Positions 3,889 to 38,135 of a stretch of 64,000 bases of DNA are shown here, one piece after another. This DNA is from Thermodesulfobacteriota bacterium (GTDB lineage: Bacteria; Desulfobacterota; Syntrophorhabdia; Syntrophorhabdales; JANXAF01), in NCBI GenBank assembly GCA_025062045.1, contig JANXAF010000004.1, positions 62,001-126,000 on the forward strand, given 5' to 3'. A program made the translations under genes and the position numbers. Positions within the stretch are counted from its first letter, which is position 1. Every line of letters starts with the position of its first letter. The notes under the pieces were generated by a model. The model worked only from the letters and a program-made list of their open reading frames with translations. It was not told the origin of the DNA and did not search any database.

Positions 3889-4305
3889 ATGCATGAGTGG
3901 GCAGTTGCGGAATCGATTGTCCTTACGGTCCTCAAAGAGGCTGAAAAAAATGGAATGAGATTCCTTGACCGGATAGTCTTGCGGATCGGCGAGCTCCAAA
4001 GGATGGAAAAGGATATTTTGTGCTTCGCCATGGAGAGCATCTTTAGGCATTACGGATACGAACTTTCCGAAAAGAACTTCGACATATTAGAAGAACCCGC
4101 CTTTTTTAAGTGCCATGTCTGTGAGACGGAATGGCCATATGTGGAGGTACTAAGATCAATGGGTGAAGAGGAAAAGGAATTTATCCACTTCATACCTGAG
4201 GTGGCTCACGGGTTCATAAAATGTCCATCCTGCGGAAGCTCAGATTTTGAACTTGAAAGAGGAAGGGGTGTAGTTATCGAGTCTATAAGCGGGAGAATAT
4301 GCTAG
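3889..4305 (+). CDS. hypA: Hydrogenase nickel incorporation protein HypA (archaeal-type spacing)
   Basis: Nickel metallochaperone that helps load Ni into the large subunit of [NiFe] hydrogenases. It begins with the obligatory Met-His-Glu, where His2 and the N-terminus bind Ni. The zinc site is C75-x-x-C78 and C112-x-x-C115. The 33-residue stretch between the two pairs is much longer than in E. coli HypA and, as I recall it, matches the Thermococcus kodakarensis protein (Cys73/76/110/113). The stop overlaps the next gene by 7 bp. That partner is an Mrp/MinD-type ATPase and not the GTPase HypB, which is the archaeal arrangement. Confidence 0.95.
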   Translation: MHEWAVAESIVLTVLKEAEKNGMRFLDRIVLRIGELQRMEKDILCFAMESIFRHYGYELSEKNFDILEEPAFFKCHVCETEWPYVEVLRSMGEEEKEFIHFIPEVAHGFIKCPSCGSSDFELERGRGVVIESISGRIC

Positions 4306-5033
4306 ATCCAAGACTGTCAGTGATTGAAAAGAGACTTTCAAATATAGGTGAGATAATAGCTATCTCCGGTGGAAAAGGGGGGGTAGGAAAGACCACAGTG
4401 GCCTGCCTTCTTGCACTTTTTCTTTCCAAGAGAGAAAAAAGGGTAGGACTATTCGACATGGACTTTTACGGACCATCCACACACGTTATCCTGGGAATTG
4501 ATGACGTCCATGTTGAAGAGGATAGGGGGATCATTCCTCCTCAATGGAATGGGATTTCATACATGTGTATCTCTTTATTTACCAAAGGGAACCCTCTTCC
4601 TATGCGGGGAAAAGATTTATCTAACGCAATATTGGAGTTCCTTTCCACTACGATCTGGAAAAAGCTCGATTATCTGATCCTTGATTTACCTCCAGGAACA
4701 GGCGAAGTTACGCTCGAAGTTTTAAGGTTTTTAAAAAAGGCCAGGTTTTTGCTCACAACAACTCCTTCGAAAGTGGCAAAAGAGGTACTGAAAAAAGAGA
4801 TAGCCATTCTTAAAGGAAGGGGAATCGAAATAATAGGAGTTATTGAGAACCAAAAAATAGATAAAGAATCACAGGATCTCTGTTTTTTAGACCATGTTCC
4901 TATCCTGGGAACCCTTCCTTTCGACGAAAATTTTGAGAAAGCCTTGGGTTCGGTGGATAAGATTCTTGCCACCGATCTTTATGCCAGAGCGGAAAAGCTC
5001 TTCCAAGATATTTTTTTTAGCGATGGCCGGTAG
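4299..5033 (+). CDS. Mrp/MinD-type ATPase in the HypB position (ATPase-type HypB)
   Basis: A 244-aa SIMIBI-class P-loop ATPase with the deviant Walker A motif GGKGGVGKTT (residues 24-33), a switch I-like Asp (FDMDFYGPS) and a Walker B/switch II segment (LILDLPPGTGE). Generic family members are Mrp/ApbC iron-sulfur carriers. Placement exactly between hypA and hypF, with overlaps on both sides (7 and 11 bp), and absence of any GTPase HypB in the cluster argue that it is the ATPase-type HypB that binds HypA in Thermococcus and drives Ni transfer. The conserved C-terminal CxxC of Mrp iron-sulfur carriers is not seen. Function in nickel insertion is inferred from context; an Fe-S carrier role is the alternative. 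Confidence 0.8.
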   Translation: MLDPRLSVIEKRLSNIGEIIAISGGKGGVGKTTVACLLALFLSKREKRVGLFDMDFYGPSTHVILGIDDVHVEEDRGIIPPQWNGISYMCISLFTKGNPLPMRGKDLSNAILEFLSTTIWKKLDYLILDLPPGTGEVTLEVLRFLKKARFLLTTTPSKVAKEVLKKEIAILKGRGIEIIGVIENQKIDKESQDLCFLDHVPILGTLPFDENFEKALGSVDKILATDLYARAEKLFQDIFFSDGR

Positions 5034-7356
5034 CTCGGAAGCTATACGGTATCTTATAAAAGTTCATGGGACAGTCCAGGGAGTCGGATTCAGACCTTAC
5101 GTTTACCAGCATGCGAGGGAGTTCAATCTAACGGGGAAAGTCTTCAATTCCAGTGAAGGCGTTGTGATAGATGTGGAGGGTAAAAAAGAAAAACTTTTTC
5201 GTTTTTTGGAACTTCTGCGAAAAAACCCCCCTCCTTTGGCAAAAATTGAAAATATAGAGTTTGAGGAGCTGCCAGTATGTAACTACACTTCATTCGTCAT
5301 AGTTGAAAGTGAAAAAGACAAAGAAAGGAAGGCCCTTATTCCTCCAGATGTGGCAACATGTAATGATTGCAAAACCGATATTCTGAACCCCAAAGACAGA
5401 AGGTACATGTATCCTTTTACGAATTGCACAAACTGCGGTCCGAGGTTTACGATAGTCTATTCGATTCCCTATGATAGAGACAAAACATCGATGAAAAAAT
5501 TCGTCATGTGTTCGGATTGCGAAAGGGAGTATCACGACCCTAAAGATCGGAGGTTTCACGCTCAACCGACATGCTGTCCAAGGTGTGGTCCAAAAGTATG
5601 GGTTGCGAATAGAGAAGGAATTAAAGTTGCCGATGAGAATAACTGGTTACAATTCGTTTGGGAGAAATTACAGGAGGGAAAAATAATTGCGTTAAAAAGC
5701 CTTGGCGGTTTCCATCTTGCATGCGATGCAAAAAACGAAGACGTAGTACAAGAGTTGAGATTAAGAAAGAGAAGGCCAAAAAAACCTTTCGCGGTCATGT
5801 GTAAAGACAAAGAGACTGTAAAAAAGTATTGCCTTCTCTCGGAAGAGGAGGAAAGACTTCTTACATCTTGTCACGCTCCGATTGTCGTTCTAAAAAGGAG
5901 AATAGATTGTGATCTTCCGGATATTCTTGCCCCTGGTATTAAGACCCTCGGTGTAATGCTCCCTTACACGCCTCTCCACATATTGCTTTTTTTAGGTCCA
6001 TTCGAAGTACTTGTTATGACAAGTGGAAATGTCTCGGAACTCCCAATCGTCATAAGTAATGAGGAGGCAGTGACAAAGCTTGGAAAGATATGCGATTTTT
6101 TTGTCTTTCACGAAAGGGATATAGTTAACCGGTGTGATGATTCAGTCGTCAAATTAGTAGACAATAATGTCCAGTTTTTCAGGCTCTCTAGAGGATATGT
6201 CCCAGAACCGATAACCCTTCCCTTTGTGGCACCAAAAGTAACTGTGGGAATAGGTGGAGAAATGAAGAATAATATTTGTATCATAAAAAACGATAAAGCT
6301 TTTATGAGCCAATACGTGGGCGAAATAGACACAGAGGAGGGCCGGGAAAATCTCCTAAACTGTTTTAGGAACCTATGTAGACTTTTAGACGTTTCACCTA
6401 AAGCGATAGCCTTTGACCTTCACCCGAATTACCTTTCTAGTTCTTTTGCCAAATCCTTGCCTGCCGAGATTCATTTTGGATGCCAACACCACCACGCCCA
6501 TATGGTGAGCTGTATGGCAGAAAACTGTTTAGATGAAAAAGAAGTGATAGGTGTTGTACTTGATGGAACAGGTTACGGAACTGATGGAAACCTTTGGGGC
6601 TTTGAGATCCTTCTTGGGAACTACAGAACTTACGAAAGACTTTTTCATCTTGCATACTGTCCACTACCTGGAGGCGAAATAGCAATTCGGGAACCTTGGA
6701 GAATGGCCATAAGCTATCTCTATTCTTTTTTGGGGGAAGAGGGACTATACTGGGCTGAAAAGATTTTTGGAAAGGAAAGGACCGCGCTTATAGTTGAGGT
6801 CTTAAAAAAGGGGTTCAACAATCCTTTATCCTCAGGATGTGGGAGACTTTTTGATGCGGTATCAGCTATGGTCGGTTTATGCGAAAAAACGAGTTATGAG
6901 GGACAGGCTGCGATCGAACTTGCCGAACTTGTGCAAACCTTTGAGGGTGATGAAATGGAAGATCGGTACGATTTTGAGATAGTAAATGGGGTTATTTATC
7001 CGGATAAGGTGATCTTGGGGGTCGTTCGCGAAAGGGTCTCTGGTCGATCTGCCGAGTTTATATCCCATAAGTTCCATAACACCGTAGTTGAGATTATAAA
7101 GGAATGTGTGAAAATGGCTAGCGCTCAAAGAAACGTAAAAAGGGTTGTGCTTAGCGGGGGCACGTTTCACAATGACTTTATTCTAAAGAAGACAAAAAGA
7201 ATTTTAAAAGATTTGGGGTTAGAAGTGTACTTCCACACAAAAGTTCCCCCAAATGACGGAGGAATAGCCTTGGGTCAGGCTGCTATACTTGCCGCAAAAA
7301 TAAAGGAGGGTGAGGATGTGCCTGGGAATTCCTGCTTTGGTCTTAGATGTGAATGA
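5023..7356 (+). CDS. hypF: Carbamoyltransferase HypF
   Basis: Makes the thiocarboxamide on HypE that becomes the CN- ligands of the hydrogenase active-site iron. The start ATG 5023 (777 aa) overlaps the ATPase gene by 11 bp; longer in-frame starts would add about 43 residues of non-homologous sequence. Domains in order: acylphosphatase (residues about 8-95, with GTVQGVGFR), two zinc-finger units (about 110-195: CNDC, CTNCG, CSDC, CPRCG), a YrdC-like domain (about 200-385), and a Kae1-like domain whose metal-binding segment includes HHHAH near residue 490. Length fits the family. It is co-transcribed with the rest of the hyp set. Confidence 0.96.
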   Translation: MAGSSEAIRYLIKVHGTVQGVGFRPYVYQHAREFNLTGKVFNSSEGVVIDVEGKKEKLFRFLELLRKNPPPLAKIENIEFEELPVCNYTSFVIVESEKDKERKALIPPDVATCNDCKTDILNPKDRRYMYPFTNCTNCGPRFTIVYSIPYDRDKTSMKKFVMCSDCEREYHDPKDRRFHAQPTCCPRCGPKVWVANREGIKVADENNWLQFVWEKLQEGKIIALKSLGGFHLACDAKNEDVVQELRLRKRRPKKPFAVMCKDKETVKKYCLLSEEEERLLTSCHAPIVVLKRRIDCDLPDILAPGIKTLGVMLPYTPLHILLFLGPFEVLVMTSGNVSELPIVISNEEAVTKLGKICDFFVFHERDIVNRCDDSVVKLVDNNVQFFRLSRGYVPEPITLPFVAPKVTVGIGGEMKNNICIIKNDKAFMSQYVGEIDTEEGRENLLNCFRNLCRLLDVSPKAIAFDLHPNYLSSSFAKSLPAEIHFGCQHHHAHMVSCMAENCLDEKEVIGVVLDGTGYGTDGNLWGFEILLGNYRTYERLFHLAYCPLPGGEIAIREPWRMAISYLYSFLGEEGLYWAEKIFGKERTALIVEVLKKGFNNPLSSGCGRLFDAVSAMVGLCEKTSYEGQAAIELAELVQTFEGDEMEDRYDFEIVNGVIYPDKVILGVVRERVSGRSAEFISHKFHNTVVEIIKECVKMASAQRNVKRVVLSGGTFHNDFILKKTKRILKDLGLEVYFHTKVPPNDGGIALGQAAILAAKIKEGEDVPGNSCFGLRCE

Positions 7357-7546
7357 GGATGAAAATTGGGCACTTGTAGATTCTAACGGAGCGGTCTTCA
7401 AAGTCCATCTCCACATCCTGGATGAGGAAGTAAAAAAGGGTGATTACGTGATGGTCCACGCGGGGTTTGCAATAGGAAAGATAGAAAAGGAAGATGCAAA
7501 GATGCGATTGGAGATGCTAAGGGAGATAATCTACTATGGTCGATGA
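7316..7546 (+). CDS. hypC: Hydrogenase assembly chaperone HypC/HupF
   Basis: Small chaperone (76 aa) that holds the Fe(CN)2CO unit with HypD and delivers it to the hydrogenase large subunit. The start ATG at 7316 is fixed by the strong site AGGAGGG (7304-7310) and by the family signature MCLGIP, in which Cys2 binds iron after Met1 is removed; a GTG at 7310 would bury this Cys. The gene overlaps hypF by 41 bp and hypD by 11 bp, so translation is probably coupled. Confidence 0.95.
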   Translation: MCLGIPALVLDVNEDENWALVDSNGAVFKVHLHILDEEVKKGDYVMVHAGFAIGKIEKEDAKMRLEMLREIIYYGR

Positions 7547-8621
7547 ATGGGTAAAAGATCTAATCGATGAAGTTTTGTCTTTAAGTAGAAGTCTTAAAGA
7601 AAAACTTGGGCGAAGAATAAAGATCATGGAAGTATGCGGTACGCATACGATGGTTATCTCGAAAAGCGGAATAAGATCCCTCTTTTCTGAAACGGTAGAA
7701 CTTATAAGTGGTCCTGGTTGTCCAGTTTGTGTCACGGACCAGATGGACATTGACAAAATAATCCTTTATGCTCAGATGGACAATATAACCCTTTGTACGT
7801 TTGGTGATATGATTAAGGTTCCAGGCTCTCTATCTTCGCTTGAGAAAGAAAGAGCCAAGGGCGCTCGAATTGAAGTCTTTTATTCTCCTAGTGATGCCTT
7901 AAATTATGCCAAGGACCACCCAGACGAAGAGATCGTATTTGTGGGAATAGGCTTTGAGACCACAATTCCCCTTCTTGCGCATTGTATCCTTGAGGCAAAA
8001 AGGCAAAGACTACAGAATTTTTCTTTATTTTCGCTACACAAGTGCCTTCCTCCTGCGATGAAGGCGCTTCTTGATGATCCAGAGATTTCGCTGGACGGAC
8101 TTATCCTTCCAGGTCACGTTTGCACAATCACAGGGTCGAGGGCGTTCGAATTCATAGCCGACGATTATAGAATACCCTGCTGTGTTTCTGGTTTTGAGCC
8201 TACAGATGTCATTGAGGCGATAGGCATCATTTTAGCTCACATAAAAAGAGAAGAAGCTAAAGTTGAGATAGGGTACAAAAGACTCGTTAAACCTGAGGGT
8301 AACTTAACTGCAAAGCGAGCTATTTATACGGTATTTGAGCCTTCGGATGCGCGTTGGAGAGGGTTTGGGGAGATCCCGGGAAGCGGTTTGAAGATAAAAG
8401 AAGAGTATAGGGATTTCGATGCGGAGGCTAAATTTCCGCTACCGGAGGTGGAATCAGTCCCGGAGAGAAAAGGTTGTATATGCGGGGATATAGTCAAAGG
8501 GAAAAAGATACCCACCGATTGTAGTCTCTTTTCAAAAGTCTGTAATCCTAAAGAGCCATTTGGCCCCTGTATGGTTTCTCAAGAGGGAGCCTGTGCAGCC
8601 TATTACAACTATGGGGGATAG
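7536..8621 (+). CDS. hypD: Hydrogenase formation protein HypD
   Basis: Iron-sulfur scaffold on which the Fe(CN)2CO moiety of [NiFe] hydrogenase is built. Signature motifs are present: CGTHT with Cys34, and GPGCPVC with Cys62 and Cys65, the iron-binding and redox Cys residues. The C-terminal cluster of Cys residues (CICGD, TDC, KVC, GPC) that ligates the [4Fe-4S] centre is complete. At 361 aa it has the usual length. It starts inside hypC and ends 3 bp before hypE. Confidence 0.96.
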   Translation: MVDEWVKDLIDEVLSLSRSLKEKLGRRIKIMEVCGTHTMVISKSGIRSLFSETVELISGPGCPVCVTDQMDIDKIILYAQMDNITLCTFGDMIKVPGSLSSLEKERAKGARIEVFYSPSDALNYAKDHPDEEIVFVGIGFETTIPLLAHCILEAKRQRLQNFSLFSLHKCLPPAMKALLDDPEISLDGLILPGHVCTITGSRAFEFIADDYRIPCCVSGFEPTDVIEAIGIILAHIKREEAKVEIGYKRLVKPEGNLTAKRAIYTVFEPSDARWRGFGEIPGSGLKIKEEYRDFDAEAKFPLPEVESVPERKGCICGDIVKGKKIPTDCSLFSKVCNPKEPFGPCMVSQEGACAAYYNYGG

Positions 8622-8624
8622 CCA

Positions 8625-9638
8625 ATGAAAACGAAAGATGTCATTCTCCTTTCGCACGGTGATGGTGGGTTACTCACGCACGAGCTCTTGGAACAGTACT
8701 TCCTGCCGTATATCGGGAATGAACTCCTCCTCCAGATGGACGATGCGACCGCGGTCGATTTAAAAAGCGAAAAGATAGTCATAACGACGGATAGTTACGT
8801 TGTGGATCCAATCTTCTTTCCTGGCGGGGACATAGGTAAGCTCTCTGTTTTTGGCACGGTTAACGATCTTTCAGTTTCAGGTGCAAAACCCCTCTATATC
8901 GCAGCTTCTTTTATTATGGAAGAGGGGCTCGAACTGGAGATTCTTGAAAAGATCGTAATTTCTATGTCTTACGCGTGTAAAGAGGCAAATGTGAGCATAA
9001 TAGCAGGGGATACAAAAGTTGTTGGTAGAAACCAAGTTGACAAGATATTTATAACCACAACCGGAATTGGAGTTCGCTTAAACGGGGTAAGACTCGGAAA
9101 GATGTATATAGAACCCGATGATTCAATAATCGTGAGCGGGCCTCTTGGGAATCATGGGCTTTGCATACTGCTTGAACGGGGAAACTTTAACTTTAGGACA
9201 AAGATTGTAAGTGACTGTGCTCCTTTAAATGGCGTAATAGAGAGGATTCTCAAAGAATTCAAAAAGGTAAAATACATGAGAGATCTAACAAGAGGCGGCC
9301 TTGCCACTTGTCTCAAAGAGATAGCATCATCCATAGGTAGTGTAGACTTCCTATTAGAAGAAGCTGACATCCCGATCGATGAGGAGGTAAAGGGGATATG
9401 TGAGACCTTAGGTTTAGATCCGCTCTATCTCGCAAACGAAGGGAAATTTGTGCTTTTCATTGGAAGAGACGAAGCTCAGAGTGTCTTGAATTTTATGAGA
9501 GATGAACTTGGGCTTAAAGGAGCATCGAAGATAGGGGTAGTGAGAGAAGGGAGTGGAAACGTATTTATGAAAACATTAATCGGCGGGACAAGAAGGCTAA
9601 ACATGCTCTCTGGAACTCCTCTTCCTAGAATTTGTTAA
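8625..9638 (+). CDS. hypE: Hydrogenase maturation factor HypE
   Basis: ATP-dependent dehydratase of the AIR-synthase fold that turns the carbamoyl group received from HypF into a thiocyanate, the source of the cyanide ligands. The protein (337 aa) ends in PRIC; the C-terminal Cys is the acceptor in all HypE proteins. The N-terminal HGDGG and the internal GDTKVV and TRGG segments fit the ATP and phosphate sites. It is the last gene of the hypA-hypE cluster; a 49-bp gap follows before enolase. Confidence 0.95.
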   Translation: MKTKDVILLSHGDGGLLTHELLEQYFLPYIGNELLLQMDDATAVDLKSEKIVITTDSYVVDPIFFPGGDIGKLSVFGTVNDLSVSGAKPLYIAASFIMEEGLELEILEKIVISMSYACKEANVSIIAGDTKVVGRNQVDKIFITTTGIGVRLNGVRLGKMYIEPDDSIIVSGPLGNHGLCILLERGNFNFRTKIVSDCAPLNGVIERILKEFKKVKYMRDLTRGGLATCLKEIASSIGSVDFLLEEADIPIDEEVKGICETLGLDPLYLANEGKFVLFIGRDEAQSVLNFMRDELGLKGASKIGVVREGSGNVFMKTLIGGTRRLNMLSGTPLPRIC

Positions 9639-9669: not shown

Positions 9670-12216
<2,547 letters not shown>

Positions 12217-12227
<11 letters not shown>

Positions 12228-34111: not shown

Positions 34112-34981
34112 ATGGGAGAAGTTTTGGAGGTTCCTGCAATATGGATACAGGCTGCAGGATGTACAGGATGTTCCATATCGATTCTTAACGCGGACTACCC
34201 TAATATAAAGAATCTTCTCATCGATGAGGTTCTTCCTAAAAAGCACATAAATCTGAGATTCCATCCAAACATCATGGCAGGACAGGGTGAGGCAATCCTT
34301 GAGGTGCTAAAGGAGACAAGTACGGAAAAAAAAGGAAAGTATCTTCTTATCATTGAGGGGGCAGTCCCCACAAAGGATAACGGCATATACGGTGTTATTG
34401 GGGAAAGGGAAGGAAAACCAATAACGATGCTCGAATGGATAAGAGAACTATCCGCCTCGGCAATGGCCGTTGCAGCATTAGGGTCCTGTGCTACTTTTGG
34501 GGGTATCCCAAAAGCTAGGCCCAATCCGACCGGTTGTAAGTCTGTGGGAGAAATCTTAGAAGAGTACGGAATTAAGACACCCTATGTTAACATCCCCGGC
34601 TGTCCTCCCCACCCAGATTGGTTTGTCGGTACTCTGGCAAGCATCTTATTGATGGGGCTTCCAAGGGAAGAGGATCTCGATGAGCTGAGAAGACCGAAGC
34701 TATTCTTCTCCCAGACGATTCATGAGAACTGTCCAAGAAGGGCTTACTACGATGAGAGAAAGTTTGCAAAAAAGTTTGGAGAACCTGGCTGCCTTTATGA
34801 GCTTGGATGCAGGGGACCTGTCACGTACTCAGATTGTCCGGTAAGAATGTGGAACGGCAGAGTAAATTGGTGTGTCGGATCGGGCGCAACGTGCATCGGA
34901 TGTTGTTCAGAGGGATTCCTCGATGAGATCTCTCCGATTTACGTCAAATTAGAAGAAGCTGAATTTCCCAAGGAGGTATAA
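34112..34981 (+). CDS. [NiFe] hydrogenase small subunit (group 1-like, no Tat signal)
   Basis: Electron-transfer subunit with three Fe-S clusters, 289 aa. The proximal cluster starts at C17-x-x-C20 (AAGCTGCS), with ALGSCATFGG and IPGCPPHPDW supplying the other ligands. The distal site (IHENC, GCLYELGC) and the medial site (DCPVRMW, WCVGSG, CIGCC) follow in the order of group 1 uptake hydrogenases. Those normally have a Tat leader with RRxFxK; here the strong ribosome site fixes ATG 34112 and the mature domain starts at once, so the enzyme should stay in the cytoplasm. The stop is directly followed by the large-subunit ATG. Confidence 0.93.
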   Translation: MGEVLEVPAIWIQAAGCTGCSISILNADYPNIKNLLIDEVLPKKHINLRFHPNIMAGQGEAILEVLKETSTEKKGKYLLIIEGAVPTKDNGIYGVIGEREGKPITMLEWIRELSASAMAVAALGSCATFGGIPKARPNPTGCKSVGEILEEYGIKTPYVNIPGCPPHPDWFVGTLASILLMGLPREEDLDELRRPKLFFSQTIHENCPRRAYYDERKFAKKFGEPGCLYELGCRGPVTYSDCPVRMWNGRVNWCVGSGATCIGCCSEGFLDEISPIYVKLEEAEFPKEV

Positions 34982-36541
34982 ATGGGAAGGATAGTTATAG
35001 ATCCTTTAACACGTATAGAAGGCCACCTAAAGATTGAAGTGGAGATAGAAGGTGGCACTGTGGTTCAGGCTAATAGTTCTGGGATGCTATTTAGAGGCTT
35101 AGAGATAATACTTAAAGGGAGGGACCCAAGGGATGCTCAGACTATAACGCAGAGGGTATGCGGAGTCTGTCCCACTCCCCATGCCATGGCGGCAGCCCTT
35201 AACCTCGATTCGGCTTTCGGAATCGACGATAAAATTCCCGACAACGGTAGGATCATAAGGAATCTGATTCTTGGAGCTTCCGAACTGTCCGACCATGTTC
35301 TCCACTTTTATCATTTGTCTTCCCTCGATTATGTTGATGTGACGAAGATCAAAAGTTACGAGGGTAAAGATCCTTTTCTTACCTCGATAAAGAACTTCAT
35401 AAATAGAGGAGAACTCAGCCCCTTTGTTCCGAGGTATGAGGGGGATTATAGACTACCAGACAAATTGAACGAGGCTTTGGTAAGCCATTACATTGAAGCA
35501 CTCAACATAAGACGGAAAGGCCAGGAAATGGTTGCGATTTTCGGTGGAAAGATGCCGCATAATGTTGGGATACTTCCAGGGGGTGTGGCATCGATTCCTA
35601 CGCCAGATAATATCTCAAGCTTTTTATGGAGGCTAAAAGAGATAAAAGGATTTATTGAAAATGTGTACCTTCCCGATGTGATTGCTCTTGCTAAAGTATA
35701 TTCGGACTATTTTGAAATCGGAAAGGGTTGCGGAAGACTCCTATCATTTGGAGTGTACGACCTAGAAGGAAAGGAAAAAGATCTCACAAAAAGAAAGAGG
35801 TTCTATTCTTCCGGAAGAACTGACACGAGCATGACCTATTCGGAAATTGATCCTTCAAAGATCGCGGAGTATGTAAAGTACTCTTTTTACGAAGATTCAT
35901 CCACAGCCAGACATCCGAAGGACGGAATCACGGCTCCGAAACCAGAAAAAGCCGGTGCGTATTCATGGCTAAAATCTCCAAGATACGATGGGATGGTCTA
36001 TGAAGTGGGTCCCCTTGCCAGAATAATGGTGAACTACGCAAAGGGGAACGAGAAAGTGAGGAAACTTGTGGATTCTACTCTTTCTGAAATTGGTGTGAAG
36101 CTGGAAAACATGTTCTCAACGATGGGCAGACATCTGGCTCGGGCACTAGAGACGAAGCTTCTTAGTGAAGTTATGGAAGATTGGGTTTTGAGTTTAAAGA
36201 TAGGAGAGCCGTGCTACGTACCTTATGAGATTCCGGAAGAATCGGAAGGCATAGGACTACTTGAGGCAGCCCGGGGTGCATTGTGCCATGCCATAAGGAT
36301 AAAGGAAGGAAAGATCGAAAACTATCAGGTGATAACGCCTTCAACCTGGAACGTTTCACCAAAGGATGACAAGGATCAACCTGGAGCCCTTGAACAGGCG
36401 TTAATAGGGACAAAGATAAAGGATGAAAAAAACCCGTTCGAGATTGTAAGGATAGTAAGGTCTTTTGATCCCTGCCTAGCCTGTTCCATCCACTTGATAG
36501 ATGCACGGGGAAAAGAAAGAACGGCTTTTCGTATAACATAA
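34982..36541 (+). CDS. [NiFe] hydrogenase large (catalytic) subunit
   Basis: 519 aa, carries the Ni-Fe site that splits or makes H2. N-terminal IDPLTRIEGH; L1 motif RVCGVC with Cys60 and Cys63; L2 motif DPCLACSIH with Cys498, Cys501 and His504. Fifteen residues follow His504 and should be cut off by a maturation endopeptidase after Ni insertion; no such protease gene is in this window. Group 1-like by motif. It is 12 bp upstream of metV, so hydrogenase and reductase genes appear to form one operon. Confidence 0.94.
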   Translation: MGRIVIDPLTRIEGHLKIEVEIEGGTVVQANSSGMLFRGLEIILKGRDPRDAQTITQRVCGVCPTPHAMAAALNLDSAFGIDDKIPDNGRIIRNLILGASELSDHVLHFYHLSSLDYVDVTKIKSYEGKDPFLTSIKNFINRGELSPFVPRYEGDYRLPDKLNEALVSHYIEALNIRRKGQEMVAIFGGKMPHNVGILPGGVASIPTPDNISSFLWRLKEIKGFIENVYLPDVIALAKVYSDYFEIGKGCGRLLSFGVYDLEGKEKDLTKRKRFYSSGRTDTSMTYSEIDPSKIAEYVKYSFYEDSSTARHPKDGITAPKPEKAGAYSWLKSPRYDGMVYEVGPLARIMVNYAKGNEKVRKLVDSTLSEIGVKLENMFSTMGRHLARALETKLLSEVMEDWVLSLKIGEPCYVPYEIPEESEGIGLLEAARGALCHAIRIKEGKIENYQVITPSTWNVSPKDDKDQPGALEQALIGTKIKDEKNPFEIVRIVRSFDPCLACSIHLIDARGKERTAFRIT

Positions 36542-36553
36542 GGAGGATGGGAG

Positions 36554-37201
36554 ATGCTTATTTCGAAACAGAAACCCCTTGAAGAAATTATGGAATACAT
36601 AGAGGGAGAAAAGAAAGTATTTTTAGTCGGATGTAAGGGATGCGCAGAGGGTTGGGAGAGCGGAGGAGAAAGGGAGATATTAGAAATGAAAAAAAAGCTT
36701 GAGGAAAAAGGAAAGATAGTTACAGGACACGTTGTTGTAGATATGCTCTGTGATAAGGCACTTTCAGCAATTAAGTTGAAAAATTTCAAAAAGAAGATAG
36801 ACGAGGCAGACTCCTTGATAGTATTTACAGACGGGGCTGGAGTCCAAGTGGTAGCTGAACTCGTAAAAAAGATGGTTCATCCAGGGTGTAATACGATATC
36901 ATCAGGAGGAGCCCACGCTGAATGGAAAGGTGCTGAAAGGTGTATGGAATGTGGAAATTGTGTCCTCGAATACACAGGAGGGTTATGTCCTATCGCCAGG
37001 TGTTCAAAGCATATACTTAATGGACCATGCGGTGGTTCCCAATACGGAAAATGCGAGGTTGACGAGACTATCCCGTGCGTATGGCACCTAATATACGAAA
37101 GGTTGAAGGAGATCGGTCGGTTAGATAAGATGGAGATGTTCGTAGCTCCTAAAGACTGGAGTTTAAGCCTTATAGCCGGTCCGCCTGTAAAAAGGTTCTA
37201 G
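36554..37201 (+). CDS. MetV-like methylene-THF reductase C-terminal-domain protein (hydrogenase-linked)
   Basis: 215-aa zinc/Fe-S protein of the MTHFR_C family, the MetV partner that feeds electrons to MetF in acetogens. Cys motifs: VGCKGCAEGWESGGE near residue 26, then CMECGNC and CPIARC...GPCGGSQYGKCEV in the C-terminal half. A GGAGGAT ribosome site precedes ATG 36554. It sits between the hydrogenase large subunit (12 bp) and metF (10 bp). A second copy is at 42040-42693. Confidence 0.88.
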   Translation: MLISKQKPLEEIMEYIEGEKKVFLVGCKGCAEGWESGGEREILEMKKKLEEKGKIVTGHVVVDMLCDKALSAIKLKNFKKKIDEADSLIVFTDGAGVQVVAELVKKMVHPGCNTISSGGAHAEWKGAERCMECGNCVLEYTGGLCPIARCSKHILNGPCGGSQYGKCEVDETIPCVWHLIYERLKEIGRLDKMEMFVAPKDWSLSLIAGPPVKRF

Positions 37202-37211
37202 GAGGTAAGAA

Positions 37212-38135
37212 ATGAAGACGAAAAGTAACCTTGAGAGGGTTTTGAACGCCGGTTATTTTGCAGTTACGGCAGAAGTCGGTCCACCCCAGAGCGCGGATCC
37301 CGAAGTTATAAGAAAGAAGGCCAAGCTTCTTTCCGGTTACGTAGACGGGTTTAACGTCACAGACGGTCAAACTGCGGTCGTAAGAATGGCAAGCTGGGCC
37401 GCCTGCTTGATCGGAAAGGAGTTTGGGCTAGATCCAATAGTGCAGATGACCTGCCGTGACAGAAATAGAATTGCACTACAAATGGACATATTGGGTATAG
37501 CGGCTTTAGGTATAAATAATGTCCTCTGCCTTACGGGTGATCACCCGAAGTTCGGCAACCATCCCCATGCTAAAGGTGTCTACGATATAGATTCTGTACA
37601 GCTCATAAAGATCGTAAAGGATATGAGGGACGAAAAAAAGTTTCAGAATGGAGAACCGATTCCTTACGAGCCGAGACTCTTTATAGGTGCTGCCGAGAAT
37701 CCTTTTGCTGATCCTTTTGAATTCAGAGTCCTAAGACTCAAAAAGAAAATTGAGGCAGGTGCTGATTTTATTCAGACGCAGATAATTTACAATGTCCCCA
37801 AGTTCAAAGAGTGGATGAAGAGGGTGTGCGACTTGGGCTTACACGAGAAAGTCAAGATTATAGCGGGCGTATCGCCGTTAAAATCTGTAGGTGCTGCAAA
37901 ATACATGAAGACAAAGATACCGGGAATGGATGTGCCCGACGAGATAATTACAAGACTCCAAGGCGTTCCCAAGGATCAGGTGCCAAAGGAAGGGATAAGG
38001 ATTTGCGTGGACATAATAAACGAGCTCAAAGAGGTTAAAGGTGTAGCAGGAGTCCACATAATGGCTATAGAGTGGGAAGAGACTGTACCGGAGATCGTGG
38101 AAGCGGCAAACCTCTATCCAAGACCTAAGTTCTAA
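37212..38135 (+). CDS. metF: Methylenetetrahydrofolate reductase MetF (hydrogenase-linked copy)
   Basis: TIM-barrel flavoprotein, 307 aa, reducing methylene-THF to methyl-THF (or the reverse) in the methyl branch of the Wood-Ljungdahl pathway. TAEVGPPQ, MTCRDRNRIALQ, NVLCLTGDHP, and GADFIQTQ...AGVSP mark the FAD and folate sites. It has no C-terminal regulatory domain and needs MetV as electron partner. Last gene of the hydrogenase operon; its stop overlaps the convergent regulator stop by 4 bp. Confidence 0.92.
   Translation: MKTKSNLERVLNAGYFAVTAEVGPPQSADPEVIRKKAKLLSGYVDGFNVTDGQTAVVRMASWAACLIGKEFGLDPIVQMTCRDRNRIALQMDILGIAALGINNVLCLTGDHPKFGNHPHAKGVYDIDSVQLIKIVKDMRDEKKFQNGEPIPYEPRLFIGAAENPFADPFEFRVLRLKKKIEAGADFIQTQIIYNVPKFKEWMKRVCDLGLHEKVKIIAGVSPLKSVGAAKYMKTKIPGMDVPDEIITRLQGVPKDQVPKEGIRICVDIINELKEVKGVAGVHIMAIEWEETVPEIVEAANLYPRPKF

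Follow-up and report, generated by a model that had tools for sequence, protein, structure and literature searches.

A bacterial hyp operon with a long zinc-loop HypA and a predicted ATPase-type HypB

The closest described counterpart of the gene pair considered here comes from the archaeon Thermococcus kodakarensis, whose HypA and ATPase-type HypB are represented by the structures 3a43, 3vx3 and 5aun-5auq (PMC7055735, which cites Sasaki 2013 and Watanabe 2015). HypA and ATP-bound HypB of this species form a 2+2 complex, HypA raises ATP hydrolysis by HypB threefold, and a nanomolar nickel site is made up of the HypA N-terminus, His2 and His98, the last of which is recruited upon binding of the ATPase; no nickel site was found on HypB itself (PMC7055735). 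The literature that we found on ATPase-type HypB covers this one archaeon, together with a general remark that ATPase versions occur in some organisms. Sasaki 2013 is reported to have noted this form, mmHypB, beside hypA in species that lack hypB.

Three other systems invite comparison. GTPase HypB (G3E family, TIGR00073), together with a short HypA, serves the same pathway step and is likewise hypA-adjacent, but the ATPase described here is of a different P-loop NTPase class. The Mrp/ApbC/Nbp35 carriers share its ATPase fold at 38-40% identity but have a CPxC motif and another N-terminus, and they form a separate clade. CooC is a MinD-class nickel ATPase (PMC9164220). Judged by its sequence, the pair described below is a predicted bacterial member of the known system of long HypA and ATPase-type HypB. 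It resembles the T. kodakarensis pair in fold, P-loop, DPR N-terminus, the MHEW start of HypA and the x33 zinc loop, and the IHFIPE motif of T. kodakarensis HypA is common to both; it differs in its bacterial host, in its 44-46% identity, in its overlapping hypA-hypB-hypF-hypC-hypD-hypE operon, and in being known here from sequence.

The hyp operon and its host genome

The window, by which we mean the whole 64,000-nucleotide stretch of DNA that was analysed, contains a compact hyp operon in the order hypA-ATPase-hypF-hypC-hypD-hypE; the hyp genes and the hydrogenase subunit genes given below lie on its + strand. The hypA gene (3889..4305, 138 aa) is of the long zinc-loop type (NF003008/PRK03824; 156.9 bits against the NF003008 cut-off of 125) and is followed by the gene for an ATPase of the Mrp/MinD fold (4299..5033, 244 aa), a putative hypB of ATPase type. 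Downstream are the carbamoyltransferase gene hypF (5023..7356; TIGR00143, 825.9 bits), hypC (7316..7546; TIGR00074, 63.3 bits, cut-off 48), hypD (7536..8621; TIGR00075, 447.6 bits) and hypE (8625..9638; TIGR02124, 406.8 bits). An earlier note on this DNA had described overlaps on both sides of the ATPase gene, and these are present: 7 bp with the end of hypA and 11 bp with hypF, which starts at 5023. An enolase gene and a larA-like gene lie 3' of hypE (9688-12227), an arrangement shared by the window's family and by several genomes of f3, another family of the same order. Since enzymes of the LarA family depend on a nickel-pincer cofactor, larA and the hyp genes may be linked functionally.

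The host genome (G000) has an assembly of 1.76 Mb that is 97.0% complete. Among its genes are those for [NiFe] hydrogenase large subunits, including one within the window, so that the host needs nickel insertion. The large subunit in the window (34982..36541; PF00374, 509 bits; NF033181, 619.3 bits) ends in DPCLACSIH plus a short tail and is a probable client of the pair. Directly upstream of it is an ORF for a small-subunit-like protein (34112..34981) that is Cys-rich by eye. These two subunits are followed by MetV-like and methylenetetrahydrofolate reductase-like genes (34112-38135 for the whole run), which suggests that this hydrogenase is tied to folate C1 metabolism.

A canonical GTPase hypB elsewhere in the genome had been named as one of two outcomes that would speak against the ATPase as its replacement. 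No ORF of G000 exceeded the TIGR00073 cut-off of 121.2; the best match, at 24.9 bits, belongs to a MeaB-like ORF. A GTPase hypB could possibly lie in the missing 3% of G000, though the sister genera G001 and G002 likewise have none over the cut-off, and they share the window's gene order (nadE-enoyl-CoA hydratase-hypA-ATPase-hypF-hypC-hypD-hypE-enolase-larA). G000 gave no strong Mrp-like match besides the ATPase itself. An ordinary Mrp/ApbC iron-sulfur carrier, which most relatives have, was not detected in G000, and G001 and G002 likewise showed no second match of this kind.

Sequence features of HypA and of the ATPase

The window HypA falls below the cut-off of the general HypA model TIGR00100 (56.8 bits against 88.1), and its best PDB match is T. 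kodakarensis HypA (3a43/5aun, 1.2e-32). The long spacing of its zinc loop that the earlier note had pointed out is borne out by the sequence, C75xxC78-x33-C112xxC115 (4111..4233), with 33 residues between Cys75/78 and Cys112/115. Both the N-terminal MHE and the two CxxC motifs for zinc are present, and in the alignment with T. kodakarensis HypA the protein keeps Met1, His2 and, as His100 (4186..4188), the equivalent of His98. The N-terminal MHEW (3889..3900) occurs in 23/23 long HypA sequences, T. kodakarensis included, as opposed to other residues at position 4 in 23/23 short ones, and a motif of the form [ILM]HF[IFV]PE is found in the same 23/23 long sequences.

Two features that at first appear characteristic of the long type were dropped as diagnostic signs of an ATPase partner. 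HypA ORFs that lie beside GTPase HypB (L067-L073 and L076) have zinc loops of x21 to x31, with x31 in L076 and x21-23 in several others, and in several of them a His-Phe precedes the second CxxC, as His98 does in T. kodakarensis; neither loop spacing nor the linker His, which therefore occurs in some GTPase-paired HypA as well, identifies an ATPase partner alone. By sequence these ORFs would be intermediate forms between the two kinds of HypA. What separated the kinds in our sample were the whole profile, MHEW and [ILM]HF[IFV]PE.

The ATPase has a Mrp/ParA fold by profile search (Pfam NUBPL/ParA) and lies under every equivalog cut-off. It keeps the P-loop, with a deviant Walker A, GKGGVGKT (4371..4394), that is conserved in all alignment rows. 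Its best PDB sequence match is T. kodakarensis HypB (3vx3, 5aun-5auq; 206.7 bits, 3.5e-60), with Archaeoglobus Mrp far behind at 115.1 bits, so that both window proteins find their best matches in a single solved complex, 5aun, one in each chain. The earlier note had already stated that in Thermococcus such an ATPase is the partner of HypA. An AlphaFold2 model built from 11 homologues (mean pLDDT 81.8, pTM 0.86) gave the same picture in a Foldseek search, where the first 12 matches were all T. kodakarensis ATPase-type HypB chains (TM 0.77-0.87; for 5aup, E 1.8e-26 and TM 0.87) and the next were ApbC/Mrp proteins (E 2e-16).

A maximum-likelihood tree split 19 bacterial ATPases and T. kodakarensis HypB from 23 Mrp sequences (22 from the phylum and one from Archaeoglobus) at 100/100. 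The grouping with Mrp iron-sulfur carriers that would have contradicted the proposed role was looked for in this tree and not found. Two motifs follow the split: a D-P/T-R motif before the P-loop (DPR or DTR N-terminus) is present in 20/20 rows of the HypB group versus 0/23 Mrp, and the CPxC Fe-S motif is present in 0/20 of the HypB group versus 22/22 Mrp of relatives, the Archaeoglobus row being too short to judge. Sequence and predicted structure thereby confirm the assignment of the ATPase as a putative Thermococcus-type HypB rather than a Mrp Fe-S carrier, and uphold the suggestion that a Mrp/MinD ATPase stands here in the place of GTPase HypB.

Distribution, competing readings and history of the pair

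Among 60 relatives, the host's own genome included, ATPase HypB was found in eight, all of the class, and in 8/8 it lies beside a long HypA. HypD, which all eight carriers possess, is present in 22/60 relatives, of which seven have the ATPase form only, ten the GTPase form only, one (G008) both and four neither; the ATPase form occurs in 0/38 relatives without HypD (Fisher p 1.2e-4, a value that is too small because it ignores relatedness and treats genomes as independent). The presence of both types in G008 means that exclusion of the GTPase form is not absolute. Of the 395 genomes covered in the phylum, seven passed the NF003008 cut-off; among them G199, which belongs to another family, again has the two genes side by side and lacks GTPase HypB.

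A scan of genome contigs with the ATPase alone yielded a single named relative, a Cloacimonadota MAG, which gave entry to a second phylum. In 125 Cloacimonadota genomes, long HypA occurred in 13 and GTPase HypB in 33, with no overlap; for the 49 with HypD the counts were 12, 28 and none with both, a pattern whose chance probability of 3e-6 is again too small, relatedness being ignored. The pattern is seen in each of the two phyla separately. Some HypD-bearing genomes had neither HypB type detected, namely the relatives G006, G039, G051 and G054 and nine Cloacimonadota (G498, G502, G503, G509, G515, G533, G535, G542 and G544); these may reflect either assembly gaps or another nickel-insertion solution. 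Plasmids searched with HypA gave no match, and a scan of viral contigs with the ATPase profile gave 69 matches, nearly all at 22-37% identity.

One locus was considered as a third kind of HypB and rejected. In G006, two Mrp-like ATPases in tandem that carry additional Cys-rich stretches at the N-terminus (L189:4724-6609) lie beside genes for UbiD-type decarboxylase-like proteins, with no HypA-like ORF nearby.

The type of HypA is closely matched to the type of its partner. Long HypA adjoins the ATPase in 19/19 genomes with a long enough contig, the window included, and in none does it adjoin a GTPase HypB; three further long-HypA loci are cut by contig ends, and in a few Cloacimonadota the two genes are separated by as much as about 550 bases. 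In a control set of 23 short HypA (outside NF003008), 21 were beside GTPase HypB and none beside the ATPase. Pairwise identities of HypA and of the ATPase track each other (Spearman 0.81), as expected under joint inheritance, though shared ancestry alone gives the same. Because the pair in other bacteria is almost always found without the usual HypB, it has the look of a nickel-insertion module that can be swapped. ATPase HypB occurs in at least two bacterial phyla, keeps to one HypA subtype and, in Cloacimonadota, never accompanies the GTPase form; this offers a natural experiment on what HypA needs of its NTPase partner, and the swap of HypA and HypB is directly testable in a tractable bacterium. 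The assignment would also allow proper names for genes that otherwise read "Mrp" or "ParA".

We consider it very probable that the pair is the ATPase version of the hyp nickel-insertion module, replacing GTPase HypB in this lineage. That the ATPase is instead an ordinary Mrp/ApbC/Nbp35-type iron-sulfur carrier, present in the hyp operon by chance, would fit its fold and Pfam family and its identity of about 38-40% with Mrp over the P-loop domain, and the lack of another strong Mrp match in the genome means that this role might otherwise be vacant. Yet its scores are far under the carrier cut-offs (MrpORP 148 bits against 450, ApbC 111 against 348), it falls in a clade separate from Mrp and has no CPxC cysteines, and it is always found beside hypA and, in relatives, only where HypD is present, all of which makes a carrier highly improbable. 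The least probable of the readings that we weighed is a CooC-like protein that provides nickel for carbon monoxide dehydrogenase, or one that serves several nickel enzymes: CooC is likewise a nickel ATPase of the MinD class (PMC9164220), and a larA-like gene does follow downstream of hypE, but no CooC was among the PDB sequence or fold matches listed, the partner is HypA in every readable case, and larA also follows the enolase gene in genomes where the pair is not beside hypF.

For a nickel-insertion module of this kind, a cycle like that of T. kodakarensis is the simplest reading, and the nucleotide cycle, the stoichiometry of the complex and the nickel site that we outline are inferred from that species. 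An ATP-bound dimer of the Mrp/MinD-fold HypB would dock two HypA, and docking would bring HypA His100 beside the N-terminal MHE to create a nickel site of nanomolar affinity. HypA would stimulate ATP hydrolysis, and this might then free Ni-HypA, which would load a large subunit in which the Fe(CN)2CO unit from HypCDEF is already in place.

The source of the pair is less clear than its likely function. The earlier note had proposed that both genes moved together into this lineage and had called the HypA archaeal in type. Their cohesion stands, since the genes stay together wherever the contig suffices, and the phylogeny places the ATPase with T. kodakarensis HypB and apart from Mrp; an archaeal source, a direction of transfer or a recent move does not follow from trees that have T. 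kodakarensis, by its PDB sequence, as sole archaeal anchor and whose AU tests were non-significant. Acquisition by this lineage specifically from a Thermococcales-like archaeon seems to us unlikely. Thermococcus does supply the closest relatives of the pair that have been solved and characterised, and in the trees both proteins side with it rather than with the ordinary bacterial forms, but T. kodakarensis, at 41-50% identity to the bacterial ATPases, matches this lineage (44%) no better than it does Cloacimonadota (47-50%), and the pair occurs elsewhere in the order at other loci. The bacterial sequences and Thermococcus form one clade, within which the bacterial rows stand together with T. 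kodakarensis outside in both the HypA and the ATPase tree, weakly (77/43 and 89/88); AU tests on the inner order and on monophyly of the class were non-significant, and placement of the window's family with T. kodakarensis was not rejected (p-AU 0.22 and 0.39). As the type is not restricted to archaea, "archaeal-type" is best taken as a historical label.

A somewhat more plausible history, though still one that is less likely than not, is that HypA and HypB form two matched modules, long with ATPase and short with GTPase, and that across bacterial phyla one is exchanged for the other as a whole, the ATPase module being old and widespread in bacteria, from which Thermococcales may have received it. 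At the scale of the order, the HypA tree joins the window's family with f3 (89/95) and the ATPase tree separates them, their joining not being rejected (p-AU 0.26). In the window's family the pair lies directly 5' of hypF. In f3, hypF-hypC-hypD-hypE form a run without adjoining hypA or hypB, and on contigs that reach far enough enolase and larA come after it. Those f3 genomes that have the pair carry it at another place, and at loci where hydrogenase structural genes can be seen they are about 6-8 kb away from it. These different loci imply either that the pair was relocated in the course of the order's history or that it arrived repeatedly.
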